The notes under the pieces were generated by a model. That model worked only from the letters and a program-made list of their open reading frames with translations. It ran no database searches and had not been told where the DNA came from. Source: Echinicola pacifica DSM 19836 (lineage in GTDB: Bacteria; Bacteroidota; Bacteroidia; Cytophagales; Cyclobacteriaceae). From it: 64,000 nucleotides of DNA. The translations under genes were made by a program, and so were the position numbers. The stretch spans positions 969,099 to 1,033,098 of the forward strand of contig NZ_KB890739.1 in the NCBI RefSeq assembly GCF_000373245.1, read 5' to 3'. This document shows, piece after piece, positions 2,429 through 46,953 of the stretch. Numbering within the stretch: the first letter of the stretch is position 1; each line of letters opens with the position of its first letter.

Positions 2429-4231
2429 ATGAAAATCAACCTTGGCTTAAGCCTATTTATCCTCCTTCTTCTCCCTCAGGGGAGCTATGCTCAGCAGAAA
2501 GAAGAGCAGCCTAATGTGCTATGGATCCTTACGGATGACCAGCGATATGATGCGATTCAGGCCTTTAATGAGATTCTAAGCGGTCAGGAGATGAGTGAAT
2601 TGGGCTATGTGGAGTCTCCTAATGTGGATCGGCTGGTGGCGGAAGGGACCACTTTTATCAATACTTACTGTCAGGCGGCGGCCTGCGCCCCATCGAGGGC
2701 TTCCATGCATTTTGGACGCTATCCCTTCAAGTCTGGGGTGTATGAGTTTGAATACCATAATACTATGGCGGCACACGTGAGCCCCACCTTGCCGGAGCAG
2801 ATGGAGGCGATGGGCTACCAGACCTTGCATATCGGAAAGCTGGGAGTGCGGCTGAAGACCCTGGAAAACCAGCGTATGGTCAATGCGGCGATTTACCAGA
2901 CGAGCATCGACTCAAAGCTGCTTGCGAAAGAGGGACTTTGCGAATGGGGTAAAGATTGGATATATGAGGTGGACGGGCAGAAATTTTCTCCTCCACTGAA
3001 GAGTATAGAGTTTTTTGTTAGCCCTTCGGGCCAAATTGAATATTGCTCCAACGAGCTGGAGGATAGGCTCCCCGAGCGGGCTGGTACCACTGCAGCAACG
3101 GTGGAGAAGTATGATTTGCTGCGTCATTATAATGAAAAGAAAGGAAAATCGGATGAGTCGGGAATGATACTCGCCGGGGTTAGCCCGCGCCCCGCCGGAT
3201 ATACTCGAGATGGGTATTATGTCCAAGCTTTACAACAGTTCCTGACTCACCCCAATACTGATTTTGAGATGGGCAAATTATCCTTTCAGGGTGTGGATAG
3301 TTCCAAGCCTTTGTTTTGTCATATTGGTTTTGACTTTCCCCATACCCCAGTCCTGCCACCGGAAGATTATAGGAAGCGGTTTGCGCAGCATCAGTATCAG
3401 GTCCCGGACTTTAGTGAGGAGGAGTGGGAGCAGCTTCCAGCACAGCTGAAGAAGCAGGTGGCCAACGGCTATTCGGATCACTTCACCGCGGAAGAAAAGC
3501 AAAAAATGATTCAGGATTACTATGCTTTTTGCGCGTATGGGGATGCCTTGGTGGGGCAGGCAGTGGAGGATTTTGTGGATTATAGCGAGTCCAATGGCCA
3601 GGAATGGATGATCGTCTATGTCTGCGGGGATCATGGCTGGAAGCTGAATGATCATGGTTCGGTATCAAAATTTACTCCCTGGGAGGTGGATACTCATAAT
3701 CCCATCGTGGTGGTCTCCTCGGATCAGAAGGCTTTTCCTCCGGGGAAGGTGGTTTATGATTTTACGGAATTTGTGGATATCGCCCCCACCATCATGGCAG
3801 CTGGGGGAGCGGATTTATCAGCCACAGCCTATGGCTATCTGGATGGCTATGACCTATCGCTGATAGAGAAGGGGCAGGTAAGTCCACGCTCTTATGTGCT
3901 GGGAGAAAATCATGCTGTCACTGGCCCGCGTGCGTTTATTCGTACCAAGGACTATGTCTTTTCGATGCAAAGCCGCCCCGATAAGGTGCGAGGAAATCAG
4001 ATGGACTGGGCCCAAAATGCCTCCTATGAGGAGCTGGACCCCGCGCTATACCATACCAGTGCTGATCCGAAAGAGCTTCATAATCTGGCCTTTGAGGCGG
4101 AGTATCAGCAGATAGCGATGGAACTTAAAGAAATCCTACTCTCCGAGGTACTTGGTGAGGATAGGGTGGAGGTAAATTGGGGGCAGGATGCCCGGGGAAC
4201 AGAAGTCTATACCCTCAGCCAGCAGAAGTAG
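2429..4231 (+). CDS. Secreted S1-family sulfatase
   Basis: This is a 600-residue formylglycine-dependent sulfatase. A signal peptide ([18 protein letters not shown]...YAQ) precedes the metal-binding start of the fold, [10 protein letters not shown]. The modification motif is CAPSR (C-x-P-S-R) in [18 protein letters not shown], whose Cys would become formylglycine. Later metal/sulfate-site segments are IGFDFPHTP and [13 protein letters not shown]. The iduronate-2-sulfatase-like layout suggests an exo-acting enzyme, but substrate cannot be read from the sequence. In this galactan locus a galactose-sulfate ester is the natural guess (inference). It lies between the BNR protein and a second sulfatase on the same strand. 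Confidence 0.9.
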
Positions 4232-4288
4232 TCGAATTGTTCTCGGCCGATTGTATCAATTTTGCCCCAAAACCTTAGCAATAATCCT

Positions 4289-6070
4289 ATGAAAAATCAG
4301 CTTCTTTTTGGCTTTCTGATTGCGGCACTAGTTCTTCAGCGGAGCTTCGCTCAAAGTACTGCCTTTGCGCCAAATGTGATCCTTATTCTTACCGATGATC
4401 AGGGGATTGGGGATTTGGCTTGCCACGGAAACCCATGGATCAATACGCCGAATATAGATGCATTTTATGAGGAGGCGGTGCGGATGACCGATTTTCATGT
4501 CAGTCCAATGTGCACTCCGACGCGGGCAGCGATCATGACCGGGCAGTACCCGATTCATAATGGGGCCTGGGCGACCTACAAAGGCCGGGATATGCTGGCC
4601 GCTTCGCAGCAGACGATGGCGGATATTTTTCTGGCAAATGGCTATCAAACCGCCTTATTTGGTAAATGGCATTTAGGGGACAATTATCCCTCTAGACCTA
4701 CGGACAGTGGCTTTGGCTATGCCGTGCACCATAAAGCGGGCGGGGTAAATGAACTTTCCGATTATTGGGGTAATAGCTATTTTGACGATGTGTATTATGT
4801 GAATAATACCCCCACAGCCTTTGAAGGGTACTGCACGGATGTATGGTTTGAGGAGGCGATGAAGTATATGAAACAACAAAAGGAGGATCCATTTTTCGTG
4901 TATCTGGCCACCAATGCGCCTCATTCCCCATTTTATGTGGATGAAAAATACTCCGATCCTTATAAGCCCTTGGAGGAAGCCGGAAAAATCGTTGATGCTA
5001 ATTTCTATGGAATGATCAGCAATTTGGATGAGAATTTCGGGAAATTACGAGAATTTCTATCCAGCGAAGGCTTGGCGGAGAACACCATTATCATCTATAT
5101 GACGGACAATGGCAGCTCTGCGGGAATCAGTGCAGATGGCAAAACGGGCTATAATATGGGGCTGAGGGGTAAAAAAGGTAGCCCCAGCGAGGGAGGACAT
5201 CGGGTGCCGTTTTTTATCCACTGGCCCCAAGCGGGCATACTAGGAGGTAAGGACCTGGCAGCACCCGCCCAGCATGTGGACTTGATCCCTACCTTAGCCT
5301 CGCTATGTGACTTAGATATTCCCGATGATCAGGCCTTGGATGGGATGGATTTTTCTCCTTTATTATTAGCAGAAGAACAACAGCTCCCTCCGCGAAATCT
5401 ATTCATTCATCACAGGCAAGACTGGCGCCCTCCTCATGCCCTGCAAGGGACCTGCATCATCAATGGAGCTTGGAGGCTGGTCAATGGGACGGAACTGTAT
5501 GATATCGAGCAGGACCGCATGCAACTAAAGGATCTTTCGGCCAGTCATCCTGAGCAGCTAGAGGAGATGCTAGAGGCCAATGCGTTATTTATTGAGGAAG
5601 CTCGCGAGACGGATGAATACCAGCAGCTGCCCGTGGTGGTGATTGGTCATCCTGCTCAGGAAGAAATCACCCTGACCATTCAGCATGCTATCGGCGAGGA
5701 TCAGGGAATATGGATGACCGAGCAGGTCGCCGCAGGAATGAAAAATACTAATAATACCCATGCGCTGGAAGTGGCGAGTAGCGGCACATATATCATCTCC
5801 TTGCGCAGATGGCCCATGGAATGCCCCGGCCCGATCTGGGGGATACCCGCCCATAATCCCAAAGGGCGGATGAATTACCAAACCATCCATCCCCAAAAAG
5901 CTTCCATCAGAATTGCCAATCAAATCCATGAAAAAGAGATTGTAGGAACAGAGGAGGCGGTAGAATTTAGATTGCAGCTCGAGAAGGGGAAAACCTTACT
6001 GGTCAACGATTTTCTGGAAGGAGATGAGCGCTATGGAGTCTATTATACCTATATCAGTAAGGTCGATTGA
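4289..6070 (+). CDS. Secreted S1-family arylsulfatase with C-terminal extension
   Basis: About 593 residues from the ATG at 4289. That start gives a clean signal peptide (MKNQLLFGFLIAALVLQRSFAQ); an in-frame TTG at 4262 would add nine residues and is less likely. The formylglycine motif is CTPTR in SPMCTPTRAAIMTGQYP. The LILTDDQG start and the GKWHLGD and MTDNGSS segments are typical of arylsulfatase A-like S1 enzymes. After the sulfatase core, roughly the last 140 residues form a separate beta-rich region (from about 'VVVIGHPAQEE') that many characterised sulfatases lack and that could be a carbohydrate-binding or accessory domain. It is 57 bp downstream of the previous sulfatase and is the last plus-strand gene before the convergent P450 operon. 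Confidence 0.9.
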   Translation: MKNQLLFGFLIAALVLQRSFAQSTAFAPNVILILTDDQGIGDLACHGNPWINTPNIDAFYEEAVRMTDFHVSPMCTPTRAAIMTGQYPIHNGAWATYKGRDMLAASQQTMADIFLANGYQTALFGKWHLGDNYPSRPTDSGFGYAVHHKAGGVNELSDYWGNSYFDDVYYVNNTPTAFEGYCTDVWFEEAMKYMKQQKEDPFFVYLATNAPHSPFYVDEKYSDPYKPLEEAGKIVDANFYGMISNLDENFGKLREFLSSEGLAENTIIIYMTDNGSSAGISADGKTGYNMGLRGKKGSPSEGGHRVPFFIHWPQAGILGGKDLAAPAQHVDLIPTLASLCDLDIPDDQALDGMDFSPLLLAEEQQLPPRNLFIHHRQDWRPPHALQGTCIINGAWRLVNGTELYDIEQDRMQLKDLSASHPEQLEEMLEANALFIEEARETDEYQQLPVVVIGHPAQEEITLTIQHAIGEDQGIWMTEQVAAGMKNTNNTHALEVASSGTYIISLRRWPMECPGPIWGIPAHNPKGRMNYQTIHPQKASIRIANQIHEKEIVGTEEAVEFRLQLEKGKTLLVNDFLEGDERYGVYYTYISKVD

Positions 6071-6192: not shown

Positions 6193-7413
6193 TTATTTAG
6201 AGAGGGGAACTTCAGGGTTTGCCAGGAGCTCTTTATCGAGTAGGCGATCTTCCTTCATGTATTTGGTTCCCAGCACATAGGCCTTGGCATTATTGATGGC
6301 ATCCACGGCCAGCAGTCGAGTTCCTTCAAAATACCATACGCTTAGCTTACGGTCGTTATCCAGCTCCCGGCGGACCACTAGATTATCATATCCTTGATTT
6401 ATCCCTACCATTTGCAGCTTGGTATCATACTGATCTGACCAAAACCAAGGCAAGGCTTCATAGGAGAGAGATTGTCCCATGATGTTTTTTGCGATCAATT
6501 TGGCCTGATCCACGGCATTTTGGACGCTTTCTATCCTTACCAATCGCCTGTATCGGGGATGGATAAAGCTACAGCAATCCCCAAGGGCATAAATATCGGC
6601 TATGGAGCTTTGACAGTGATCATCGATGAGAATGCCGGAATCGGTGGTTAGCCCTGCTTCCTGAGCAAGCCGCACTGCGGGGCGCACCCCGATGCCGAAG
6701 ATGGCCAGGTCGGCCACCTTGGTGGATCCATCCGTAAAAATCATAGTTACCCGATTCCCTGTTTCAGAAACAGAGCTGAGTGTTTTGCCCGGGAATAGTT
6801 GTACCCCATGGGCTTGGTGAAGGGCGCTGAAATAGTCAGCCGTCGGCTGGGCGGCTACACGGGAGAGGATCCTCTCTTCACGCTCATATAGGCTGACGGG
6901 ATGGCCTAGCTTGCGCAAAGATGCGGCGGTTTCTAGCCCAATAAATCCTGCACCGATGATGGCGATTTCGGGATTTTGCAGGGATTTTAACCTTTCTTTG
7001 ATGGCGACCACATCCGCAGCTGTCCTCAGGGTGTATAGGTTTTTCGCTTCCTCGATACCTGGCAGGGAAGGCATTATAGCCTTGGCACCAGTGGCCAGGA
7101 CGACTTGGTCATAGGGAAGTATTTCCCCCGTGTCCAGCACAATTGTTTTGGACTCCGGGAGGATCCGGAGGACTCGTTTACCCAAGTGTAAATTGATGTT
7201 TTCGGAGCTATAGCTCTCCTCCGCCCAGAGGCTGTACTGGCTTATGGGTAGGTCTTCATTGAGGAAGGTTTTGGAGAGGGGAGGCCGGTGGTAAGGGAGG
7301 TTTGGGTCGGCATCGATCAGGTCGATACTGCCTTGATAGCCTTCCTTGCGCAGGGCAAAGGCACAATTGACGCCACCGTGGCTGGCACCGATGATGATAC
7401 ACTTTTGATTCAT
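6193..7413 (-). CDS. FAD-dependent ferredoxin reductase of the P450 system
   Basis: This 406-residue pyridine-nucleotide-disulfide-type oxidoreductase resembles putidaredoxin reductase. The first dinucleotide motif lies at residues 5-12 (IIIGASHGG) and the second at about 150 (AIIGAGFIGLE). ATG...A and GIGVRPA-type segments and YALGDCC (FAD-binding Asp) are present. It would pass electrons from NAD(P)H to the adjacent ferredoxin. It is the third gene of a minus-strand operon in the order P450, ferredoxin, reductase, with an 87 bp gap to the ferredoxin. The same gene set is known beside algal-galactan PULs in marine Flavobacteriia, where it supports oxidative demethylation of 6-O-methyl-D-galactose. 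I infer the same role here. Confidence 0.9.
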   Translation of the reverse strand: MNQKCIIIGASHGGVNCAFALRKEGYQGSIDLIDADPNLPYHRPPLSKTFLNEDLPISQYSLWAEESYSSENINLHLGKRVLRILPESKTIVLDTGEILPYDQVVLATGAKAIMPSLPGIEEAKNLYTLRTAADVVAIKERLKSLQNPEIAIIGAGFIGLETAASLRKLGHPVSLYEREERILSRVAAQPTADYFSALHQAHGVQLFPGKTLSSVSETGNRVTMIFTDGSTKVADLAIFGIGVRPAVRLAQEAGLTTDSGILIDDHCQSSIADIYALGDCCSFIHPRYRRLVRIESVQNAVDQAKLIAKNIMGQSLSYEALPWFWSDQYDTKLQMVGINQGYDNLVVRRELDNDRKLSVWYFEGTRLLAVDAINNAKAYVLGTKYMKEDRLLDKELLANPEVPLSK

Positions 7414-7500
7414 GAGACTATATATTTTACCTTTTTGGTAGAGGATGTTAGAGTGGTTCCTGCTCCTGAGGAAAGTACGAGATGGAGGGTGGTTTGAGAG

Positions 7501-7809
7501 TTAGTTGGCCACCGTAACGATAAGGCCTTCTGGCGCATCCTGGACCTTCACCTGACAGGCAAGCCGACTGGTATCGCTCACATTATCCTCCAGCTCCAGC
7601 ATCTCCAATTCTATTTCGGAGGCGGCAGGAAGCTGCTCAAAGTGGTCCGGGTGAATGTGAATATGGCAGGTAGCGCAGCTGCAGACTCCGCCGCAGTCCC
7701 CGTCGATTCCAGAGATCCTATTGGCTTTGGCGAGCTCCATGAGGCTTCCACTTTCGGCAGAGAGTTCATAGCGCTCTTGGTTTTGGGTGATGAATATTAT
7801 TTGACTCAT
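7501..7809 (-). CDS. [2Fe-2S] ferredoxin, adrenodoxin type
   Basis: This 102-residue plant/adrenodoxin-fold ferredoxin has cluster ligands Cys39, Cys45 and Cys48 in the C-x5-C-x2-C motif (CGGVCSCATC) and the fourth at Cys85 (LACQV). An additional Cys43 sits inside the loop. The size and the CQV ending of the cluster region match bacterial P450 redox partners such as putidaredoxin. It is encoded 42 bp after the P450 stop and 87 bp before the reductase start, so a single transcript is likely. It is the electron shuttle between reductase and P450. Confidence 0.92.
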   Translation of the reverse strand: MSQIIFITQNQERYELSAESGSLMELAKANRISGIDGDCGGVCSCATCHIHIHPDHFEQLPAASEIELEMLELEDNVSDTSRLACQVKVQDAPEGLIVTVAN

Positions 7810-7851
7810 TGGTATATAGTTTTATTGACTTAAATAAAGTTTTCTCAGTAA

Positions 7852-9003
7852 TTAAGAAAAGGAAAGATGGATCTGATCATAGCCCACTTTTCGCTGAAAT
7901 TCTCCCCAATCTTCAATATTTTCCTTTGCTTCAAGCAGTGATATTTTGATGTCATCCTCCGCTAATACCTGAAGTAGTGTCCGCAATACCTGTCGGGCAT
8001 GGGTGGCACCCAGGCATTTATGAATTCCAAAGCCAAAGCCCACATGAGGGTTTAGCTGTCGCTCAAGGTTGATTTCATTAGGATTTTCGAAGGTATTTGG
8101 ATCCCGATTGGCGGAGGCCCAGCAGAGTGATACCCGGCTGTCGGCCTTTACGGCATGTTCACAGATTTCGGTATCTGCAGTGACCACTCTACCCATATGG
8201 GTAAGGGGCGAAAAGTACCGCACCAGTTCTTCCACGGCGGTGGTGATGATCGCTGGGTTTGCCTTTACCGCAGGCAGCACCTGAGGTTTTGAGGCAATAT
8301 AAGCAAGGGTGTTGGTGACAGCATTGATTACAGTATCTCGTCCACCCGCAAAGGTCAAAATCATTACGCCCCGTACTTCTTCTTTGGTGAATTTGCGGCC
8401 ATCGATTTCACTATTCAACAATATGCTATAGAGGTCTTCGCCGGGCGATTCTTCTGCTTTCAGGATTTGTCGATCGATATAGCTATAGAGTATCTCAGCT
8501 TTGTCGCCATCCACGGCGCTGTCCTCACTTCTGAATACATGAGTACCCCAGGATATCCATGTTTCTGCCTCAGCATAAGGGATATTTAGTAATAAGGTTA
8601 AGGCCCTGGATTGCAGTTTCAAGGAAAACTCCGAAACGGCCTCTACGGAACTTTTGGCCTTCACCTCTGATAGTAATTCTCTGATGATGGCTGCTATAGC
8701 TTGCTGGTAATCAGTGTTTTCAGGTCTCCGAAACCAGTCCTCCAGAACTGAGCGGTACTTCCCGTGCAATGGAGGATCCACCTCAAAAGGTATCTGCCTT
8801 GTGTCTCGAATGCTTACTTCGGAGGGAACGACGATCCTTCCGGGTTTTGCTCCCGACTGAAAGGTTTTGACATCTTTGGCGGTTTTTCGTACATCCTTGA
8901 GCCTCAGTAGCATCATTACATCATCCTCCTGATCCTGTACAGTGCCAAATCCCTTGGCCTCTCTCTCTCCCTCGAAGGGGTCTGGAATCCCAAATTTCTC
9001 CAT
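7852..9003 (-). CDS. Cytochrome P450, probable 6-O-methyl-galactose demethylase (CYP236-like)
   Basis: This soluble bacterial class I P450 has 383 residues. The heme-ligand loop is FGFGIHKCLG with Cys near residue 331. The I-helix oxygen-activation motif is AGGRDT at about 219-224, and the ExxR salt bridge is EELVR at about 259-262. There is no signal peptide, so it works in the cytoplasm. P450s of this kind with adjacent ferredoxin and reductase, next to agaran/porphyran genes, were shown in marine Flavobacteriia to remove the methyl group of 6-O-methyl-D-galactose, yielding galactose and formaldehyde. The substrate assignment here rests on that context plus the divergent formaldehyde-oxidising operon; it is not visible in the sequence itself. 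It is the first gene of the operon. Confidence 0.85.
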   Translation of the reverse strand: MEKFGIPDPFEGEREAKGFGTVQDQEDDVMMLLRLKDVRKTAKDVKTFQSGAKPGRIVVPSEVSIRDTRQIPFEVDPPLHGKYRSVLEDWFRRPENTDYQQAIAAIIRELLSEVKAKSSVEAVSEFSLKLQSRALTLLLNIPYAEAETWISWGTHVFRSEDSAVDGDKAEILYSYIDRQILKAEESPGEDLYSILLNSEIDGRKFTKEEVRGVMILTFAGGRDTVINAVTNTLAYIASKPQVLPAVKANPAIITTAVEELVRYFSPLTHMGRVVTADTEICEHAVKADSRVSLCWASANRDPNTFENPNEINLERQLNPHVGFGFGIHKCLGATHARQVLRTLLQVLAEDDIKISLLEAKENIEDWGEFQRKVGYDQIHLSFS

Positions 9004-9050
9004 TGCTTTTATAGTTTATCGCTCAATAATTACTTGATGTCCTAAGGAAT

Positions 9051-9082
9051 GAAAATAATCCTATAAACATGCTCACTACAAA
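9051..9082 (-). promoter_or_regulatory. Candidate Bacteroidota promoter of the P450 operon
   Basis: On the minus strand a TTTG (-33-like, 9079-9082) is followed after 21 bases by TATTTTC (9051-9057), one mismatch from the Bacteroidota -7 element TAnnTTTG. It lies about 50 bases upstream of the P450 start. Suggestive only. Confidence 0.35.
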
Positions 9083-9550
9083 TTTGAGAAGTACTGCGTC
9101 CTTATTCATCCTTTATTTTGATGATTTTATACTCTATTATGTAAGGTATAGAGTATAGTAATTGGATTAAATGACAAAAAAGAATACTATGCATTAGGCA
9201 AAAGGGGATATTTAGTTTTGGATGCGGGTAGTATTTGCGGCTTATTCAGGGGGCACACCTTTGAGTATAGGCTTTGAGAATGGATGCGAGTTTCATGTGA
9301 TTATCTATACCAAAGGTAGAAAAGGATTGCATTTTATACATCCCAACTATCCTCCCCTGAGGGGAAGGGACTTGGGAGATATTTGGTGGGAGTGTATAAT
9401 CTATATTATTAAGAAAAAATCTAGGGCTGTTATTTTGAAGGAGGAAAATTTTAGTTTGTGCACTTTTTGCCCCTTTAGGCGTGGAGTCGATGATTCGGTT
9501 GGGGTAATGGACGATCAGTTTTATTGATAACTAATGACAAAGGTGAAAAA
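9083..9550. other. Intergenic region between AraC gene and P450 operon
   Basis: About 470 bases without a convincing gene. A 101-codon plus-strand frame (9222-9527) has no recognisable domain and low-complexity, repeat-like composition. The region probably carries control sequences for the P450 operon; no clear operator repeats were seen. Confidence 0.4.
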
Positions 9551-10393
9551 CTAGATTTTTTGGAACATTTTTCGAAATTCCAAGGGGCTATGCTTTTTAA
9601 ACTTTTTAAATTGCTTATAAAAGAAGGCTAAGCTTTCGTAGCCGCAGTCATAGGCTATTTCGGTCATCTGCTTATCTGTTTCCAGTACCAATCGGCTTGC
9701 TATATTAATTCGGTATTCGTTTAGGAAAACAAAAAAGGGCTTATGCCAGGTTTTGCTAAAAAACCTTGAAAAGGATTGCTCACTCATATGCAGATGGCCA
9801 GCCACATCCGCAAGTTTGATTTTCTCGTGAAAGTGATTTTTCACATAGTTCTGAACCTTTTGGAGTCGGTCGGTGGTGGCTGAAGACAGATCATATGAAT
9901 AGGATGCCCCCGCCAATACCTCAAACTTCACCTCGGTAGCCAGATAATGCAATAGCTCCACCATTCGCAGGTATTTCTCAGTTTTAGAGGAATTTAGCAC
10001 CTTAAACATCCCCTCAGTCACGGCTTTTCGGTATTCTGGAAGGAGGTATAATCCCCTCTGGGCCTGATGACATAGCTGCCTGATGTCCTTAAACCAGGGC
10101 TGATCGGCAATGATTTCCTCCCTCCATTGCAGAACCAGCGACTTGCTGGAATGACCGGCCACAGAATTGTTTTTCCAGCAATGCGGGATATTAGTTCCCA
10201 AAAGCACCAAATCCCCCGGTAGATAATCGGAGATATTATTGCCCACATACCTTATTCCACTGCTCTCTATAATGAGGGTAAGCTCCATCTCCGGATGAAA
10301 ATGATAAGGAGCATCAAAATCACCTTTATGATACACAAAGGAGCGTACAGGATCCTGGTCTTCCAGGAGGACTTTTTCGAGTATGGCTTTCAT
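9551..10393 (-). CDS. AraC-family regulator with cupin sensor domain
   Basis: This 280-residue protein has an N-terminal cupin-like sensor (about residues 1-150, with the HFHPEMELTLI motif). Its C-terminal double helix-turn-helix AraC domain (about 185-280) has the hallmark MTEIAYDCGYESLAFFYKQFKK and the first helix LADVAGHLHMSEQSFSRFF. It lies between the minus-strand P450 operon and the plus-strand ADH operon, 166 bp from the ADH start and divergent from it. It is therefore the natural local regulator of the demethylation/formaldehyde module, perhaps sensing a methylated sugar or a galactose derivative (inference). Confidence 0.9.
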   Translation of the reverse strand: MKAILEKVLLEDQDPVRSFVYHKGDFDAPYHFHPEMELTLIIESSGIRYVGNNISDYLPGDLVLLGTNIPHCWKNNSVAGHSSKSLVLQWREEIIADQPWFKDIRQLCHQAQRGLYLLPEYRKAVTEGMFKVLNSSKTEKYLRMVELLHYLATEVKFEVLAGASYSYDLSSATTDRLQKVQNYVKNHFHEKIKLADVAGHLHMSEQSFSRFFSKTWHKPFFVFLNEYRINIASRLVLETDKQMTEIAYDCGYESLAFFYKQFKKFKKHSPLEFRKMFQKI

Positions 10394-10559
10394 GATTATG
10401 CTAAAATGCTAATTTATTTCCTAAAATATAAAATATCGTGACATAATAGAGTGGTATTAGGTCAAGATAAGTGAAGTTTAAGCAGAAGTTCCTTGGCAAA
10501 TTTGTAATACTGTCCATTTTTCAGGATGGTGAATTAATAGAAGTAAACACAATTTAGCT

Positions 10560-11687
10560 ATGAACAAAAATTTTATATCCTCCCGAGCGGCTATTGCAGA
10601 TGGCAAGGGAGCATTTACCATTGAGGAGATAGCGGTGGCTAGCCCACTAGCGGATGAGGTGCTGGTAAAGGTCAAAGCAGCGGGACTCTGCCATACTGAT
10701 CATGATTCACTGACTTGGGGTAAGCCCATCATTATGGGCCATGAGGGAGCAGGCTTAGTCGTGGAAGTAGGGGAGAATGTAAAGCATCTAAAGGCGGGGG
10801 ATGCGGTGCTCTTAAACTGGGCCACACCCTGCATGCACTGTTTCCAATGCCAGGAAGGCAATCAGCATATTTGTGAGAATAATTCACCCGTCACCGCAGG
10901 AGGCAATGGCTATACGCCTGGCCATGCGCATTTGGATGGGAGTACCTGGAAGGGGGAGCCGATTGAGCGATCCTTTAATATAGGGACCTTGTCGGAATAT
11001 ACGCTGGTGAAGGCTAGCGCCTGTGTGAAGATCGATATAGCCATTCCTTTTGCAGCGGCCAGTATCCTGAGCTGTGGCGTGATGACTGGCTATGGCTCCG
11101 TGGTGAATGCGGCGCGACTTAAACCGGGCTCTTCGGCGGTGGTTTTGGGTGCTGGAGGAGTAGGGCTGAATGTCATTCAGGCCTGCCGGATAGCGGGTGC
11201 CTCCCGTATCATAGCGGTGGACATAAATAGCGAGCGGCTGAAGATGGCGAGAGCTTTTGGTGCCACAGAGCTGATCCTGGCGGATAAAGAGGATAGAGGT
11301 CTGTCAGGAGTAGCTGAGCAAGTTAAAGGAATGACCGCTGGCCGAGGTGCCGATTATGCCTTTGAGTGCACCGCTATCCCTGCGCTAGGAGCAGCCCCGC
11401 TAGCCATGGTGAGAAATGCCGGAGTGGCCGTTCAGGTGAGCGGAATAGAGGAGGAGATCACGGTGGATATGCGCTTATTTGAATGGGATAAAATATATAT
11501 TAATCCACTTTATGGGCAATGTAGGCCAGAAATTGACTTTCCCAAATTATTTGATCTCTACCAAAAAGGTGATCTGATGCTCGAGGAAATGGTGACCACC
11601 ACCTATCCCTTGCAAGATCTAGGTCAGGCTTTTGAGGATATGCTAGCCGGCAAAAATGCCAAGGGAGTAATTGTTTTTGAATCATGA
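10560..11687 (+). CDS. Zinc-dependent alcohol/formaldehyde dehydrogenase
   Basis: This is a 375-residue medium-chain dehydrogenase. Catalytic zinc ligands are Cys44 (GLCHTDHDS) and His61-Glu62 (GHEGAG), with a third Cys in ILSCGV near residue 175. Structural zinc ligands are Cys91, Cys94, Cys97 and Cys105 (C-x2-C-x2-C-x7-C). The NAD-binding motif is GAGGVGLNVIQA. It resembles class III/thiol-dependent formaldehyde dehydrogenases. Its stop overlaps the start of the esterase gene by four bases (ATGA), so the two are translationally coupled. With the P450 next door, oxidation of formaldehyde or its thiol adduct is the best hypothesis. General alcohol oxidation cannot be excluded, because the family is broad. 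Confidence 0.85.
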   Translation: MNKNFISSRAAIADGKGAFTIEEIAVASPLADEVLVKVKAAGLCHTDHDSLTWGKPIIMGHEGAGLVVEVGENVKHLKAGDAVLLNWATPCMHCFQCQEGNQHICENNSPVTAGGNGYTPGHAHLDGSTWKGEPIERSFNIGTLSEYTLVKASACVKIDIAIPFAAASILSCGVMTGYGSVVNAARLKPGSSAVVLGAGGVGLNVIQACRIAGASRIIAVDINSERLKMARAFGATELILADKEDRGLSGVAEQVKGMTAGRGADYAFECTAIPALGAAPLAMVRNAGVAVQVSGIEEEITVDMRLFEWDKIYINPLYGQCRPEIDFPKLFDLYQKGDLMLEEMVTTTYPLQDLGQAFEDMLAGKNAKGVIVFES

Positions 11688-12511
11688 AGAAATCAGCATT
11701 TAGAACTACGGAGATTTCCGAAGAACATATTTCAGCCGAAGGCTTAAGGTTTATCACCATCAAAAGCCCGCATCTGCAAGGCCGCGGGGATCTGTGTGTG
11801 TATATTCCCCGAGGCGTCAACACCGAAAATCTACCCATGGTGACGCTGCTGCATGGTGTCTATGGAAGTGCATGGGTCTGGGCCTTGAAAGGAGGCGCTC
11901 ATCTGACCTTGCAGCGCCTGGTGGACGAAGGAAAAGTACAGCCTATGGGCCTGTTGATGCCTTCAGATGGGCTTTGGGGAGATGGTTCGGCTTATCTTCC
12001 ACATCATCAGCGGGATTTTATGTCCTGGATCGCCGAGGACCTGCCTACGGCCGCCATGGAGAATTTCCCCGCTTTCAGTCCTGCGTCGCCTAGATTTATC
12101 TCAGGTCTGTCGATGGGGGGATTTGGAGCGCTGGTGGTGGGAGGACATCATGCTAGTCGATATCAGGGAATATCCGCGCACAGCGCCATCACCGATCTGG
12201 AGCAGATGGCGGATTTCGTGGAAGAATCGTGGCTGGAAATGAAGAAAGCCAGTGATTTTGGGAATGCTTTTCAGGTACTAAGCAGGGCAGGGAAAAACCT
12301 GCCACCGCTGAGATTTGACTGTGGAAAGGACGATGATCTCGCTGAGGCCAATCGTCTGCTGAGCAGGCAGCTACAGGAAGCAGGCATTGCACATGCTTTT
12401 GAGGAATTTCCTGGCGCCCATGAATGGAGCTATTGGAATAGGCATTTAGAGGATACTTTAGTATTTTTCGACCAGATCATCCAAGATGCTGACACCAAAT
12501 CAAAACATTGA
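11684..12511 (+). CDS. Esterase-D-like alpha/beta hydrolase, possible S-formyl-thiol hydrolase
   Basis: This 275-residue cytoplasmic alpha/beta hydrolase is of the putative-esterase family that includes S-formylglutathione hydrolase. The nucleophile elbow is GLSMGG with Ser143, the likely acid is in FDCGKDDD (about 212), and the His is in PGAHEWSYW (about 245). LLHGVYGS forms the oxyanion region. Coupling to the dehydrogenase through a 4-base overlap mirrors the FrmA/FrmB arrangement, in which the hydrolase releases formate from the formyl-thioester. Bacteroidota often lack glutathione, so the thiol may be another one or the enzyme may hydrolyse sugar esters instead. Confidence in family is high, in substrate moderate. 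Confidence 0.85.
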   Translation: MKKSAFRTTEISEEHISAEGLRFITIKSPHLQGRGDLCVYIPRGVNTENLPMVTLLHGVYGSAWVWALKGGAHLTLQRLVDEGKVQPMGLLMPSDGLWGDGSAYLPHHQRDFMSWIAEDLPTAAMENFPAFSPASPRFISGLSMGGFGALVVGGHHASRYQGISAHSAITDLEQMADFVEESWLEMKKASDFGNAFQVLSRAGKNLPPLRFDCGKDDDLAEANRLLSRQLQEAGIAHAFEEFPGAHEWSYWNRHLEDTLVFFDQIIQDADTKSKH

Positions 12512-12575
12512 TCAGCCTATAAAGGTTATCCAAAAAGAATAAGCGCTGGCAGTAACAAGGGCATAATCACCAATT

Positions 12576-14885
12576 ATGGAAGTGGAGAAAATCAGAAAAG
12601 TATCGTTTACAGGACCTATAATGCCCGATGGAGGAAGTTTTGGGAGTCCTAAAGTTTACGCAGCAGGTATTCCTGCGGTGAAGGTGGCCCTGGAGCATGC
12701 CTTAAAAGAAATGGGCTTAAAGCGATCTGTGCTGACCCTCTCCAAACTTAATCAGCAGGAGGGGATAGACTGCCCAGGCTGTGCCTGGCCAGATCCCGAA
12801 AAGCGAAGCCCCTTAGGGGAGTTTTGCGAAAATGGAGTGAAAGCCATCGCTGAGGAGGCCACCAATCAGCGTGTAGATCCGGCTTTTTTTGAGAAATATT
12901 CTGTCGAAGAAATGGCCTCTTGGTCTGACTATCAGATTGGCAAGAGTGGAAGGATCACCCATCCTATGGTCCTTCGGCCAGGTTCTTTGCACTACCAGGC
13001 CATATCCTGGGCAGAGGCTTTTGACCTTATTGCCGAGGAGCTACACGGTTTGGACCATCCTGATGAAGCTGTTTTTTATACCTCAGGAAGGTCAAGTAAT
13101 GAAGCTGCATTTCTATATGGCTTGTTTATCAGGGCCTTTGGAACTAATAATATGCCCGATTGCTCGAATATGTGTCATGAATCCTCAGGCGTTGCCCTTA
13201 CCGAAACTCTGGGGATCGGCAAGGGATCGGTGACTTTGGAGGATATGTACCTCGCGGATGTGGTCATGATCCTGGGACAAAACCCCGGCACCAATCACCC
13301 CAGGATGCTGTCTGCTCTAGAGAAATGTAAGGGGAATGGAGGCAAAATAATCTCCATAAACCCACTTAAAGAAGCGGGTTTGGTGCGATTTAAGAATCCT
13401 CAGGAAATCATTGGGATGATCGGGCAGGGCACAGGTCTCACCGACCTGTATCTTCAGGTGAAGATCAATCAGGATGTCGCTTTATTAAAATTGATCCTAA
13501 AAAAACTATATCATAAAGAACTACAGGAATCAGGGATTTTTGATTGGGAATTTATCCAGGAAAAGACCCAGGGAGTAGAGGCTTTTTTGGAGGACCTAAA
13601 AAGATATTCTTCCGAGGAGCTGCTGCGTTCCTGCGGGCTGGATGAGGAGCAGGTGGATGAGGCAGTGGAAATCATTGCGGCCGGCAAAAAGCTGATCATC
13701 TGCTGGGCGATGGGGCTTACTCAACATAAAAATGGGGTGGACAATATTCAGGAATGTGTCAATTTACTCCTGCTAAAAGGCAGTATAGGAAAGCCAGGCG
13801 CGGGCACCTGCCCCGTTCGCGGCCATAGCAATGTGCAGGGGGATCGCACGGTGGGGATTACCCACCATGTTTCACCACGTCTCAATGCGGCATACCAAAG
13901 GGTGTTTAATTTTATCCCTCCCACCAAGGTAGGCTTGGACGTGGTGCATGCGATACAGGCCATGCATGAGAAGAAGGCGAAAATTTTTGTAGCCTTGGGA
14001 GGCAATTTCCTTTCGGCTGCCAGCGATACTCACTATACAGGTGCCGCCCTGCAAAACTGCCGCCTCACGGTTCAGATTAGCACTAAGCTGAATAGAAGTC
14101 ATCTGGTGACTGGCAAAACAGCCTTGATCCTGCCCTCCCTGGGCCGCACAGAACAGGACCTGGAAGGAGGAGCCAAAAGGTATATTACAGTAGAAAATAG
14201 CATGGGCAGAGTACATCGCTCTCAGGGGAGGCTGCAGCCGGCTTCAGACCAACTCAAAAGTGAACCAGCGATCATCGCCACTATGGCCAAGGCCTATTTC
14301 AAAGATACTGGAAGCATCGATTGGGAGGCATTAGGAGAAGATTATGATCTGATTCGGGAAAAAATAGCCCAGGTATTTGGAGGATTTGAGGACTATTCAG
14401 AGCGATCGGCAGGGGCAGGTTTCGACTTGCCCAACAATTCCCGGGAAGCAGATTTTTCCTCCTTGCCGGGAGGCAAAGCCCATTTTACCCGTTGCCAGCT
14501 ACCCAATCATCAGCTGACCAATGCCAAATACCTACTGATGAGCATACGGTCTCATGATCAGTTTAATACGACCATCTATGGCCTAAATGACCGGTATCGT
14601 GGCGTGAAAATGGAGCGTAGAGTGCTATTTATGAACCCGCAGGATGTCGCAGAAGAAGGCCTGAAGAAGATGGATGTCGTTGATCTCATAAGTAAGTACG
14701 ATGGCCAAATTCGTAAAGCCGAGAACTTCCTGATATTCCCCTATGACATCCCTCAAGGAAACCTGGCGGCCTATTTCCCCGAAACCAATGTACTGGTGCC
14801 CATCCATCATTTTGCAGACAAAAGCCATACCCCGATCAGCAAATCAATAGAGGTAGATATCCTCCCCAAACCCAATTCCCAATAG
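12576..14885 (+). CDS. FdhF/YdeP-family molybdopterin oxidoreductase (formate dehydrogenase-like)
   Basis: This 769-residue member of the Mo/W-bisPGD oxidoreductase superfamily has an N-terminal cysteine cluster at Cys66, Cys69 (CPGCAWPDP) and Cys84, the short YdeP-type arrangement. The predicted metal ligand is a Cys in SNMCHESSG (about residue 200), so it is a cysteine and not a selenocysteine enzyme. QNPGTNHPRML and LLKGSIGKPGAGTCPVRGHSNVQGD-type segments are typical cofactor-binding regions; no Tat signal is visible. It lies 64 bp after the esterase and is likely in the same operon. Formate oxidation to CO2 would finish formaldehyde detoxification. YdeP proteins are poorly characterised, so formate as substrate is an inference from context. 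Confidence 0.82.
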   Translation: MEVEKIRKVSFTGPIMPDGGSFGSPKVYAAGIPAVKVALEHALKEMGLKRSVLTLSKLNQQEGIDCPGCAWPDPEKRSPLGEFCENGVKAIAEEATNQRVDPAFFEKYSVEEMASWSDYQIGKSGRITHPMVLRPGSLHYQAISWAEAFDLIAEELHGLDHPDEAVFYTSGRSSNEAAFLYGLFIRAFGTNNMPDCSNMCHESSGVALTETLGIGKGSVTLEDMYLADVVMILGQNPGTNHPRMLSALEKCKGNGGKIISINPLKEAGLVRFKNPQEIIGMIGQGTGLTDLYLQVKINQDVALLKLILKKLYHKELQESGIFDWEFIQEKTQGVEAFLEDLKRYSSEELLRSCGLDEEQVDEAVEIIAAGKKLIICWAMGLTQHKNGVDNIQECVNLLLLKGSIGKPGAGTCPVRGHSNVQGDRTVGITHHVSPRLNAAYQRVFNFIPPTKVGLDVVHAIQAMHEKKAKIFVALGGNFLSAASDTHYTGAALQNCRLTVQISTKLNRSHLVTGKTALILPSLGRTEQDLEGGAKRYITVENSMGRVHRSQGRLQPASDQLKSEPAIIATMAKAYFKDTGSIDWEALGEDYDLIREKIAQVFGGFEDYSERSAGAGFDLPNNSREADFSSLPGGKAHFTRCQLPNHQLTNAKYLLMSIRSHDQFNTTIYGLNDRYRGVKMERRVLFMNPQDVAEEGLKKMDVVDLISKYDGQIRKAENFLIFPYDIPQGNLAAYFPETNVLVPIHHFADKSHTPISKSIEVDILPKPNSQ

Positions 14886-43624: not shown

Positions 43625-43650
43625 CTTTGCTATAAACCCCCGGATTGCCT

Positions 43651-46600
43651 ATGAACTACGCTTACCCCATCATAACCTTCGGATTATTCTATCTCTTTAC
43701 CGCCTGTACACCAGAAGACAGCCGAGATACCACTAAGGCAGCTTTATTCCAAAAGGTGGCTCCCAGCCATTCCAACGTGGATTTTGCCAATGATATTATA
43801 GAAAACGATACCCTGAATTATTTCAACTTCCCCTACCTCTATATGGGCGGTGGCGTGGCCATTGGGGATATCAATGGGGATGATCTGCCCGATATTTACT
43901 TTACAGGAAATCACCAGGCCAATAAACTTTACCTGAATAAAGGCGATTTTACCTTTGAGGACATCTCACTATCTGCGGGAGTCCAGGGGGATGATCGCTG
44001 GTACACCGGGGCCCTGATGCATGACTTTAATCAGGACGGCTGGCTGGACCTTTACCTATGTGTTTCAGGGAAATCCGGAAATACTGAAAATCAATTATAT
44101 ATCAATAACCAGGACCAAACCTTCACCGAGTCTGCTCGCGAGTATGGCTTGGCGGATAAGGGACATTCGATTCATGCCACCAGCATCGATTATGATCGGG
44201 ATGGACTCATGGACTTGTTTGTGGCCAACTATCCCTTAGTACCTGTAAGCCAGGGCAACCTATTCTATAAGGAGCTGATGGACCAAAATAAACCGGAGGA
44301 CTCCGGACATCTCTATCGAAATACGGGGAAGGGGACTTTTGAGGAGCTGAGCGCCGAAGCAGGAGTTCAGCGATTTGGCCTGACACTGGGCCTGATGGCG
44401 GCGGATTTTAATGGAGACGGTTGGGATGACCTTTACCTTTCTAATGACTTTAATGTACCGGATTACCTCTATATCAATCAAAATGATGGCACCTTCCGTG
44501 AGCAGCTCCAGGCCTCCATGGCACAGACGAGCATGTTTGGGATGGGGATAGATGCGGCGGATTTCAATCGTGATGGCTTATTGGATTTGGTGCAGGTGGA
44601 TATGACCCCCGAGGATCACCTGCGCTCCAAAACCAATATGGCCAGCATGAGCCCGAGGACTTTTTATGAAGCCATTCAGCTGGGTTTTCATCATCAATAT
44701 ATGCAGAATAGCCTGCAGCTAAACAATGGTACCGATCAGGGCATACCTGTTTTTAGCAATATTGCAAGGTATGCAGGGCTGGCGACCACCGACTGGAGCT
44801 GGGCACCGCTGATGGCCGACCTAGACAATGACGGCTGGATGGACCTTTTTATTACCAATGGCATGAAAAGAGATGTCAATAATAATGACGTGAATCAGGA
44901 ATTCGACAATCAATCTTTTTTTGGAAATGACCTCGTCCTTGATATCAACAAACTTCCGAGTACGCCCATTTCCAACTATGCCTTTCAAAATATCAATGGG
45001 CTGGACTTTCAGAAGGTCACCAGCGAATGGGGTCTGGATCATCCCGGCTTTTCCAATGGCCTGGCTTATGCCGATTTGGATGCAGATGGACAGCTGGATT
45101 TGGTGATCAATAACCTTAGTGAAGCAGCATCTATTTACAAAAACACCGGCAATGAATCCCGATTTTTAAGGGTCAAACTCCAGGGGCCAAGCTCAAACTC
45201 CTCAGGAATAGGAGCCAAAGTTTGGCTTTACAGTCAGGGAAAGATACAATACCAACAGCTCAATCCATCACGGGGCTTCCAGTCTAGCGTGGAGCCGATC
45301 TTACATTTTGGACTCGGGGCAGCAGCAGTGGACTCCCTCCTCGTGCAGTGGCCTGATGGCAATACTCAAAGCCTAAAAAACACGCCCATCAATCAGCTGC
45401 TTCTCCTGAAACATCAGGAGTCAACAGCACACAAAGCAAGCAGCAAAGCGCCGCAGCCATGGTTTGAGGACATCACGGAGTCGGCAAATATAGACTTTCT
45501 GCATCAGGAAGATGCCTATGATGACTTTCAGTATGAGCCCTTATTACCTCATCGCAATTCGCAGATGGGACCAGCGCTGGCAGCGGCAGATGTCAATGGC
45601 GATGGGCTGGATGACTTCTATATCGGCAATGGAGCAGGATTTTCCAGCCAGCTATATATGCAAAATACCCAAGGGAAATTTGATCTGGTGGAGGGGCCTT
45701 GGCAGGCGGATAGCGCCTATGAGGATACCGGGGCGATATGGCTGGATGCCGATGGCGACGGCGACCTCGACCTGTACGTGGTGAGTGGAGGCAATGATAA
45801 CAGCAAGCCCGGGGAATTCTTCCAGGACCGATTGTATATGCAGACATCCGCAGGATTTATAAAACACAGGCATGCTACCCTGGCCACCCGGGGTATTAGT
45901 GGGCAGGTGGTCCAGCCCTTCGATTATGAGGGCGATGGCGACCTGGACCTGTTCATTCCTGGCAGGATAGTGCCTGGCAAATATCCCAATGCCGCTCCCA
46001 GCGTTTTCCTGATCAATCAAGGCGGTCAGGATCAGCATTTACAGTATATTGCCTTGGAGGAGTCTCTTGGACTTGGGGAGCTAGGTCTGGTGACCGATGT
46101 GCAGGTGGAGGATTTTACCGGCAATGGCAGGCAGGACCTGCTGCTGGTGGGAGAATGGATGAATATCAGCCTATACGAAAATACACCAAGCGGCTGGGTG
46201 GACCTCTCCGCGGATAAGGGGCTGAAGGATAGCCGAGGATGGTGGAATTGTATTCAGGAAACCGACCTGGATCAGGATGGAAAGAAGGATTATATCATAG
46301 GAAACCTAGGGTTGAATTATAAATATAAGACTAGCAAAAAGTCTCCATTCACCATTTATGCCAATGATTTTGATGAGAATGGCAGCCAAGATATCGTGCT
46401 GAGCTATGAGAAGAAGGGCAAGCTACTTCCGGTAAGGGGAAGGGAATGTTCCTCTCAGCAGGTGCCCGCTATCGCCAAGCGATTTGAGACCTACGAGGCT
46501 TTTGCTAATGCCAGCCTGGAGGAGATCTATGGAAAGAATATGTTGGAGAATTCCCTGCATTATGAGGTGAATACCTTCCGGTCTATTTGGCTACACCGCG

Positions 46601-46953
46601 ATGATAAGGGTGGGTTTGTACTAAGTGATTTGCCGGAGGCAATGCAACTGTCCGCTATCCGGACCATGGTGCCTCTCCAGCTCAATTCGGACCAGATTAT
46701 GGATTATATTGCAGCAGGAAACCTGTACCAGTCGGAGGTGGAGACTCCCCGCAATGATGCAGGAATAGGAACGGTGATGGTGGGCCAGGGTGATGGAAGT
46801 TTGGAAGCGATTCCTGCCTCCCAAACCGGGCTTTTCATAAGAGGAGAGGTGAGCAATACTGCGAGCTTGAATATGGCTGGAGGAGGCAAAGCAATCGTCT
46901 TTGCCATCAATTCGGGGAAATGTAAAGTGCTGAAGGTAATCGGGGAACGATAA
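43651..46953 (+). CDS. FG-GAP/VCBS repeat lipoprotein with ASPIC/UnbV domain
   Basis: About 1100 residues (ATG 43651; a TTG at 43645 is unlikely). A lipobox lies at FTACTPEDS. Ca-binding FG-GAP/VCBS repeats (DINGDDLPDIYFTGN, DFNQDGWLDLYL, DLDNDGWMDLFI, DVNGDGLDDFYI, EGDGDLDLFIPG) form integrin-like propellers. A central ASPIC/UnbV domain (about 510-600, LRVKLQGPSSNSSGIGAKVW...GLGAAAVDSLLVQWPDG) is present. It is probably surface-exposed and may bind glycan or help assembly; many marine PULs have such a gene. Its stop overlaps the next start by one base. Confidence 0.9.
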   Translation: MNYAYPIITFGLFYLFTACTPEDSRDTTKAALFQKVAPSHSNVDFANDIIENDTLNYFNFPYLYMGGGVAIGDINGDDLPDIYFTGNHQANKLYLNKGDFTFEDISLSAGVQGDDRWYTGALMHDFNQDGWLDLYLCVSGKSGNTENQLYINNQDQTFTESAREYGLADKGHSIHATSIDYDRDGLMDLFVANYPLVPVSQGNLFYKELMDQNKPEDSGHLYRNTGKGTFEELSAEAGVQRFGLTLGLMAADFNGDGWDDLYLSNDFNVPDYLYINQNDGTFREQLQASMAQTSMFGMGIDAADFNRDGLLDLVQVDMTPEDHLRSKTNMASMSPRTFYEAIQLGFHHQYMQNSLQLNNGTDQGIPVFSNIARYAGLATTDWSWAPLMADLDNDGWMDLFITNGMKRDVNNNDVNQEFDNQSFFGNDLVLDINKLPSTPISNYAFQNINGLDFQKVTSEWGLDHPGFSNGLAYADLDADGQLDLVINNLSEAASIYKNTGNESRFLRVKLQGPSSNSSGIGAKVWLYSQGKIQYQQLNPSRGFQSSVEPILHFGLGAAAVDSLLVQWPDGNTQSLKNTPINQLLLLKHQESTAHKASSKAPQPWFEDITESANIDFLHQEDAYDDFQYEPLLPHRNSQMGPALAAADVNGDGLDDFYIGNGAGFSSQLYMQNTQGKFDLVEGPWQADSAYEDTGAIWLDADGDGDLDLYVVSGGNDNSKPGEFFQDRLYMQTSAGFIKHRHATLATRGISGQVVQPFDYEGDGDLDLFIPGRIVPGKYPNAAPSVFLINQGGQDQHLQYIALEESLGLGELGLVTDVQVEDFTGNGRQDLLLVGEWMNISLYENTPSGWVDLSADKGLKDSRGWWNCIQETDLDQDGKKDYIIGNLGLNYKYKTSKKSPFTIYANDFDENGSQDIVLSYEKKGKLLPVRGRECSSQQVPAIAKRFETYEAFANASLEEIYGKNMLENSLHYEVNTFRSIWLHRDDKGGFVLSDLPEAMQLSAIRTMVPLQLNSDQIMDYIAAGNLYQSEVETPRNDAGIGTVMVGQGDGSLEAIPASQTGLFIRGEVSNTASLNMAGGGKAIVFAINSGKCKVLKVIGER

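Follow-up and report, generated by a model that had tools for sequence, protein, structure and literature searches.

In a 64,000-nucleotide stretch of the Echinicola pacifica DSM 19836 genome (hereafter the window; G000:C2:969099-1033098, where G numbers denote genomes and L numbers compared loci), genes for a cytochrome P450 and its redox partners lie beside a divergent operon for a zinc alcohol dehydrogenase (ADH), an esterase and an FdhF-like molybdopterin oxidoreductase. We find that ADH-esterase pairs of this kind recur beside oxygenases of different families, and we favour, at a probability of about 0.5, a reading in which P450 demethylation is followed by ADH-esterase handling of a masked one-carbon product. 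The P450, with its ferredoxin and reductase as a class I system, would strip the methyl group from the 6-O-methylgalactose of porphyran. The ADH and esterase would act as a conserved two-enzyme unit: the ADH would oxidise the masked product of oxidative O-demethylation, neither free formaldehyde nor an adduct of a common thiol, to a formate-level ester, which the esterase would hydrolyse. The same unit would serve P450s, PhyH-type iron/2-oxoglutarate dioxygenases and a desaturase-Rieske oxygenase, and the FdhF-like enzyme, where present, might oxidise the released formate. Every catalytic step at the window locus is inferred. The linkage of P450, ADH and esterase is already published (PMC10033563); new here are the swapping of oxygenases beside the pair and an FdhF-like partner that occurs without FdhD.

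One ADH-esterase pair, several kinds of oxygenase

The P450 query matched 13 of 291 genomes of the order and the ADH query 29, with all 13 P450 genomes among them (Fisher p 5e-15, relatedness not corrected). The 13 P450 loci carry the esterase in 11 cases and an FdhF-like gene in eight; a ninth P450 genome (G118) has its FdhF-like gene on another contig, close to the contig start. FdhF-like genes occur in 112 of the 291 genomes and somewhere in all 13 with the P450. Among 28 P450-selected Bacteroidota loci from named genomes (L027-L053 and L055, about 17 of them with Flavobacteriaceae titles), the ADH was present in 21 and the esterase in 19 of those 21, and no FdhF-like gene was seen in any of the 28 stretches compared, several of which end at contig ends. 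The original prediction had proposed checking whether ADH, esterase and formate dehydrogenase co-occur with such P450s. Its ADH and esterase are genuinely linked to the P450, in agreement with the similar arrangement of CYP, redox partners, esterase and ADH described in several marine bacteria (PMC10033563), and its third member, at eight of 13 and none of 28, accompanies only some of the P450 loci.

To look at the pair itself, the ADH was sought in draws from the order, the phylum and the class. This gave 40 genomes, 13 represented by the order's P450 loci, centred on the P450, and 27 by loci centred on the ADH; second stretches of genomes already included (L069, L094-L097) are excluded. The esterase was found in 32 of the 40, within 500 bp of the ADH in 31. 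A P450 lay nearby in 19, a PhyH protein of type A in four, a PhyH protein of type B in four and a desaturase-Rieske protein in one. The non-P450 oxygenase gene stands 1-32 bp from the ADH in seven of these nine genomes, at 2.0 kb in L071 and at 3.6 kb in L075. Pfam was run on six of the nine and agreed in all six, with PhyH (PF05721) in five and FA_desaturase plus Rieske in L066. The HxD motif and distal histidine are present in the type A PhyH proteins; in three of type B the search pattern missed the middle letter of HxD, and HAD was seen directly in two. Placed on the ADH tree, the oxygenase labels call for 6 changes or more, although this is a quick tree with many weak forks, and its well-supported branches alone force fewer. 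L117 was left out of the tree counts, L035, which has a P450 and a PhyH protein together, was scored as P450, and the figure of 6 excludes loci with none of these oxygenases.

The desaturase-Rieske protein of L066 has its histidine boxes and Rieske motif and is accompanied by a separate FAD/NAD/[2Fe-2S] reductase (Pfam). This locus also encodes a sulfatase and a BNR protein with 62% and 49% identity to their window counterparts (sulfatase 1 in Table 1 and a protein at 6-2360), and because of this likeness the P450 appears, from sequence, to have been replaced by the desaturase-Rieske protein in a similar locus. At L045 (13499-15982, Labilibacter sediminis) a single 827-residue protein combining desaturase, Rieske and FAD/NAD reductase parts adjoins a P450 set, with no ADH in the stretch; it may be a self-sufficient oxygenase.

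Members of the PhyH family are known to demethylate sugars in another setting: PHYHD1/FJS are 2'-O-methyl nucleoside (ribose) O-demethylases (PMC12709175). They belong to the same family as the oxygenase that takes the place of the P450 in relatives of the window locus, although the PhyH gene is found in those relatives and not in the window, and demethylation by the relatives is putative. Among the matches listed in searches of open-licence PMC, no report beyond PMC10033563 was found that ties demethylation to PhyH or desaturase genes of polysaccharide loci, or that brings porphyran together with formate dehydrogenase, and the terms 'molybd' and 'dioxygenase' are absent from the main text of that paper.

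Identity of the P450, ADH, esterase and FdhF-like protein

All seven genes of the original prediction are intact open reading frames (ORFs) with the positions and strands given in Table 1, and ORFs and Pfam domains agree on the class I P450 set. The P450 aligns with PDB entry 6g5o over 382 residues at 581.8 bits, the next entry reaching 138.1 bits, and it is the sole match in the window's genome at E 0.001. We take 6g5o to be the CYP236A 6-O-methylgalactose demethylase. In 2018 such a demethylase was reportedly described with its ferredoxin and reductase from Zobellia and Formosa. The window system resembles it in sequence, in having class I partners (Fer2 and reductase genes) adjoining the P450 in one operon and in its porphyran-type setting, whereas it belongs to another lineage, has another gene order and is active by prediction only. 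Demethylation of 6-O-methylgalactose is predicted on the grounds of this close kinship to solved enzymes and of the porphyranase next door, and the prediction of a P450 of this kind in a porphyran locus thus stands. Eleven further P450 relatives at 42-48% identity (L054, L056-L065) carry Verrucomicrobiota/PVC titles, two of them metagenome-assembled genomes titled Akkermansia muciniphila. No ADH or esterase match was found in these 11 stretches, and a ferredoxin match only in L062.

The ADH is closest to PDB entries 8h2a (653.6 bits) and 8h2b (644.8 bits), followed by a class III ADH (8gv3, 210.8 bits); the code 8H2A appears in PMC10033563, which describes FoADH and ZoADH. Deletion of the ADH or the CYP in Zobellia impaired growth on 6-O-methylgalactose and not on galactose (PMC10033563). 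The window ADH shares with FoADH and ZoADH its zinc ligands and its linkage to CYP, redox partners and esterase, and differs in that its operon adds an FdhF/YdeP-type gene and its activity is predicted only. Across 58 of 61 ADHs (L042 and L118, truncated at contig ends, and L117, adjacent to such an end, are excluded), the zinc ligands C44, H61 and C172 and C91, C94, C97 and C105 are invariant. So are H45, T46, D49, S50, W53, F139 and Y318, in all oxygenase groups, and these invariant pocket residues fit one common substrate, as far as sequence can indicate. The family models for three kinds of formaldehyde dehydrogenase were all missed: the glutathione-dependent (TIGR02818, 226.5 bits against a cut-off of 543.95), the mycothiol-dependent (TIGR03451, 235.3 against 512.9) and the thiol-independent (an NCBIfam model, below cut-off). 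In human class III ADH, Asp55, Glu57 and Arg114 contact S-hydroxymethylglutathione (PMC6409631). In an alignment with a class III chain read by eye, where the human chain is numbered one higher than in the literature, these correspond to Lys55, a deletion and Pro110 of the window ADH; among the 58 full-length ADHs, K, R or M occupies column 55, and P or A column 110. The window pair shares superfamilies and a two-gene logic with class III ADH and S-formylglutathione hydrolase, but both proteins fall below the family cut-offs and the adduct-binding residues are lost.

The esterase, predicted as a formyl-thiol-hydrolase-like enzyme, misses the S-formylglutathione hydrolase model by far (TIGR02821, 32.7 bits against a cut-off of 281.7). 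Its alignment of 17 sequences has 77 invariant columns, including S143, D217 and H246. A structural model (predicted local distance difference test score 87.1) suggested no preference, the fold comparison being tied between S-formylglutathione hydrolases and feruloyl/carbohydrate esterase family 1 (CE1) esterases.

As for other formaldehyde sinks, the ribulose monophosphate route was rejected for the window's genome, where the best HPS match (31.6 bits) lies below the TIGR03128 cut-off of 200; this differs from the account of Zobellia in PMC10033563. In a search of 29 genomes, HPS exceeded the cut-off in one of the order's 13 P450 genomes; a second search, of 11 genomes, gave one such case among six further P450 genomes. 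BshC exceeded its cut-off in 16 of 17 genomes.

The FdhF-like protein passes the FdhF/YdeP model (TIGR01701, 858.1 bits against a cut-off of 582.15), as predicted, and falls below TIGR01591 (233.5 against 666.25). The motifs NMCHESS and VRGHSNVQG are kept in all 23 aligned rows (21 genomes); we take the cysteine of the former, followed by histidine, to be the molybdenum ligand and the latter to be the arginine loop. No match to FdhD (TIGR00129) was found in the window's genome. Among 17 genomes, FdhD gave no match in the window's and 10 others, was above cut-off in five and a fragment in one. In the order, FdhF-like proteins at least 65% identical to the window's occur in 13 genomes, none of which has FdhD (ten tested by name, G232 a listed miss, G155 and G204 assumed misses), whereas FdhD is present in 62 of 68 genomes with other FdhF-like proteins and in six of 164 without any; one draw was taken to be G000-G240 in this tabulation. 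Of the six misses among the 68, G172 and G193 were tested by name, G193 having only a fragment of 22.8 bits where its contig ends, which was scored as a miss, and G051, G062, G082 and G207 were assumed. Since moaA exceeded its cut-off in all 10 genomes searched, the window's included, a molybdoenzyme can be made.

A connection between FdhF/YdeP proteins and formate has been reported for P. putida and M. extorquens (PMC10308882). When the formate dehydrogenase of R. capsulatus is produced in the absence of FdhD and FdsC it shows no activity, though sulfide together with a reductant restores it in vitro (PMC12140954). The window protein resembles the Fdh4A/YdeP/FdhF type (TIGR01701) in its score, active-site Cys-His and arginine loop, but its genome lacks an FdhD match and no partner subunit gene adjoins it. 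Formate oxidation would be its most obvious role, although no FdhD was matched, and the molybdoenzyme is an accessory in a subset of lineages. Proteins of the subgroup without FdhD also occur at L084, L085 and L086 near a gene set that recurs, by length, in all three and that by Pfam in L084 comprises an SSF transporter and GH88-like, old-yellow-enzyme-like, SDR and nitroreductase proteins; this other context may reveal the substrate of the subgroup.

Alternatives to a masked one-carbon substrate

Several observations weigh against the proposed handling of a masked one-carbon product. None of the oxygenase kinds sought was found in 12 of the 40 ADH genomes (one stretch, L117, stops at a contig end), the f11 branch of the ADH tree mostly keeps the ADH-esterase pair without such an oxygenase, and a full ADH was not seen in seven of the 28 P450-selected Bacteroidota stretches, some of which stop at contig ends. 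FoADH and ZoADH showed no activity on formaldehyde alone, nor as dismutases, nor on formaldehyde with glutathione, mycothiol, bacillithiol, cysteine, coenzyme A, ergothioneine, 2-mercaptoimidazole or 4-mercaptophenol; they favour the reduction of aromatic (ring) aldehydes, and their pocket is described as narrow (PMC10033563). In sequence comparison the esterase scores higher against feruloyl esterases (109 bits) than against proteins named S-formylglutathione hydrolase (40 bits). Finally, closeness of genes alone proves no pathway.

Given the 12 genomes and the f11 branch, the role of the pair may be wider. The Pfam scan of loci without a recognised oxygenase covered 19 chosen neighbours of L070, L076, L078, L079, L109, L110 and L117; the neighbours in L072, L073, L074, L077 and L080 lay outside it, and a few of those in L073 and L080 were read by eye. 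Queries with the P450, PhyH and desaturase proteins gave no match on the 38 kb contig of G439, covered in full, or in 50 kb of G443. The one candidate from the Pfam scan, a FAD_binding_3 protein (L109:12173-13336, 45 bits), was not counted as an oxygenase because it lies among methyltransferase and chalcone-synthase-like genes. Three related genomes (L070, L072, L074) have the pair without a recognised oxygenase, with a universal-stress-like gene nearby (by eye, in L070), and in these the pair may have a general role.

The original prediction took the second operon for a complete sink from formaldehyde to CO2, which proved weak at all three steps. In its classical form a formaldehyde-thiol adduct would be oxidised by the ADH, hydrolysed by the esterase as a formyl-thiol hydrolase and passed as formate to the FdhF-like protein. 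We regard this route as unlikely: the two nearest characterised relatives of the ADH used neither formaldehyde nor its adducts with the thiols offered, the residues that bind S-hydroxymethylglutathione are replaced, and the last step lacks both an FdhD match in the window's genome and a constant place in P450 loci. Lack of ADH activity on formaldehyde is a result that the original prediction had itself named as refuting, and it is published for these relatives rather than for the window protein. The authors of PMC10033563 leave open some unknown thiol. A reductive role for the ADH is somewhat better placed, though still improbable. It would repair another aldehyde, for instance one formed at carbon 6 of a sugar by off-target oxidation, and the tasks of the esterase and the FdhF-like protein would be unrelated. 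The published specific activities favour this, aldehyde reduction reaching 64.1 U/mg and oxidation no more than 0.49 U/mg, with ring aldehydes preferred (PMC10033563), and this reductive preference counts against our own reading; the exchange of oxygenases would equally fit a common oxidation by-product. However, a repair reductase leaves the close ADH-esterase pairing unexplained, and P450s, PhyH proteins and a desaturase-Rieske protein need not share one off-target aldehyde. That the genes are only co-regulated neighbours in a polysaccharide locus, with no common pathway, seems to us very unlikely. Such a view would account for the ADH genomes without a sought oxygenase in the stretch, for the eight of 40 lacking the esterase (two at contig ends) and for the absence of FdhF-like genes from the 28 Bacteroidota loci, but not for the repeated exchange of oxygenases beside one pair, nor for the published ADH knock-out phenotype (PMC10033563).

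A masked one-carbon substrate is favoured because relatives of the ADH act neither on the free aldehyde nor on its adducts with common thiols. If all three oxygenase classes demethylate, their common product can be a hydroxymethyl ether or formaldehyde, and our preferred masked substrates are an adduct with some other carrier and the hemiacetal as such. In a special form of this reading, whose odds lie within those given at the start, no formaldehyde is released: the ADH would oxidise sugar-O-CH2OH to a sugar formate ester, which the CE1-like esterase would split into sugar and formate. Yeast ADHs provide a precedent by making methyl formate from the methanol-formaldehyde hemiacetal (PMC12572079), and the nearest PDB sequence relatives of the esterase are named feruloyl esterases. 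In addition, PMC10033563 assayed the substrate and the products separately, and no test coupled to the P450, or with galactose plus formaldehyde, was found in its accessible text. Nevertheless, we consider this form doubtful, since a sugar-bound substrate should vary and the pocket, besides being narrow, is invariant across differing neighbourhoods (porphyran; GH127 arabinofuranosidase-like genes at L071 and L075). For the same reason, invariance across loci of seemingly different sugars, we prefer a carrier to the sugar hemiacetal.

Setting of the locus and implications

The features of the locus are collected in Table 1. The ADH stop and esterase start overlap by 4 nt, and 64 nt separate the esterase from the FdhF-like gene. 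Copies of the reductase (43-54% identity) adjoin the P450 in most of the Bacteroidota loci compared, and AraC relatives are present in many related loci.

Table 1. Genes of the P450 and ADH operons and the adjoining sulfatases (positions in the window)
Feature	Position	Strand	Evidence
FAD/NAD ferredoxin reductase, P450 system	6193..7413	-	Pfam Pyr_redox_2 214.9 bits, Reductase_C 90.4 bits
[2Fe-2S] ferredoxin	7501..7809	-	Fer2 PF00111 32.6 bits; C-GGVCS-C-AT-C (C-x5-C-x2-C)
Cytochrome P450, 6g5o relative	7852..9003	-	Pfam p450; FGFGIHKCLG heme loop
AraC-type regulator	9551..10393	-	HTH_18 69.7 bits
Zinc ADH, FoADH/ZoADH kind	10560..11687	+	ADH_N/ADH_zinc_N; PDB 8h2a/8h2b
Esterase	11684..12511	+	Pfam PF00756 76.2 bits; GLSMGG nucleophile loop
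FdhF/YdeP-type molybdopterin oxidoreductase	12576..14885	+	Molybdopterin/Molydop_binding; TIGR01701 858.1 bits
Sulfatase 1, polysaccharide locus	2429..4231	+	PF00884 100.8 bits
Sulfatase 2, polysaccharide locus	4262..6070	+	PF00884 193.9 bits

The 20 kb upstream of the window (L026) encode a SusC-like protein, two glycoside hydrolase (GH) family 2 proteins, a sulfatase, two GH43-like proteins and a porphyranase-domain protein. The last of these, 697 residues long with PF18040 and PF18206 both above cut-off, stops about 0.5 kb upstream of the window. Because of the porphyranase-domain gene and its neighbours, the locus looks, by sequence, like a porphyran locus. The BNR/sortilin-like protein (6-2360, + strand), which starts upstream in L026, adjoins the sulfatases; sulfatase 1 is also 53% identical to one that adjoins an FdhF-like gene in L095/L096. 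A second polysaccharide locus occupies 33608-62791, with GH2, SSF, SusC/SusD, hybrid sensor, GH29, three sulfatase and two GH28 genes, together with an FG-GAP/UnbV protein (43645-46953) and a DUF255 thioredoxin-like protein (46953-49100). A promoter scan of the window gave 14 sites against 13.3 expected from shuffles, which is no excess; terminator-like sites numbered 15 against 9.3 expected (standard deviation 2.7) and were not used for any reading.

More broadly, and as a tentative suggestion that we hold possible without thinking it probable, the ADH and esterase could be a general, formaldehyde-sparing exit for methyl groups, whichever oxygenase (P450, PhyH or desaturase-Rieske) hydroxylates the methyl ether, with the FdhF-like protein without FdhD as a new kind of partner. 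Such an exit would account for the requirement for the ADH on 6-O-methylgalactose even though the enzyme ignores formaldehyde. The puzzle of an ADH that is required on a methylated sugar and has no named substrate becomes testable, since the substrate of a pair shared by three unrelated oxygenases should be their common product. The PhyH and desaturase-Rieske genes become candidates for O-demethylation of sugars by enzymes other than P450s. The comparison also singles out a set of FdhF-like enzymes occurring without FdhD, the factor that formate dehydrogenases use for maturation.

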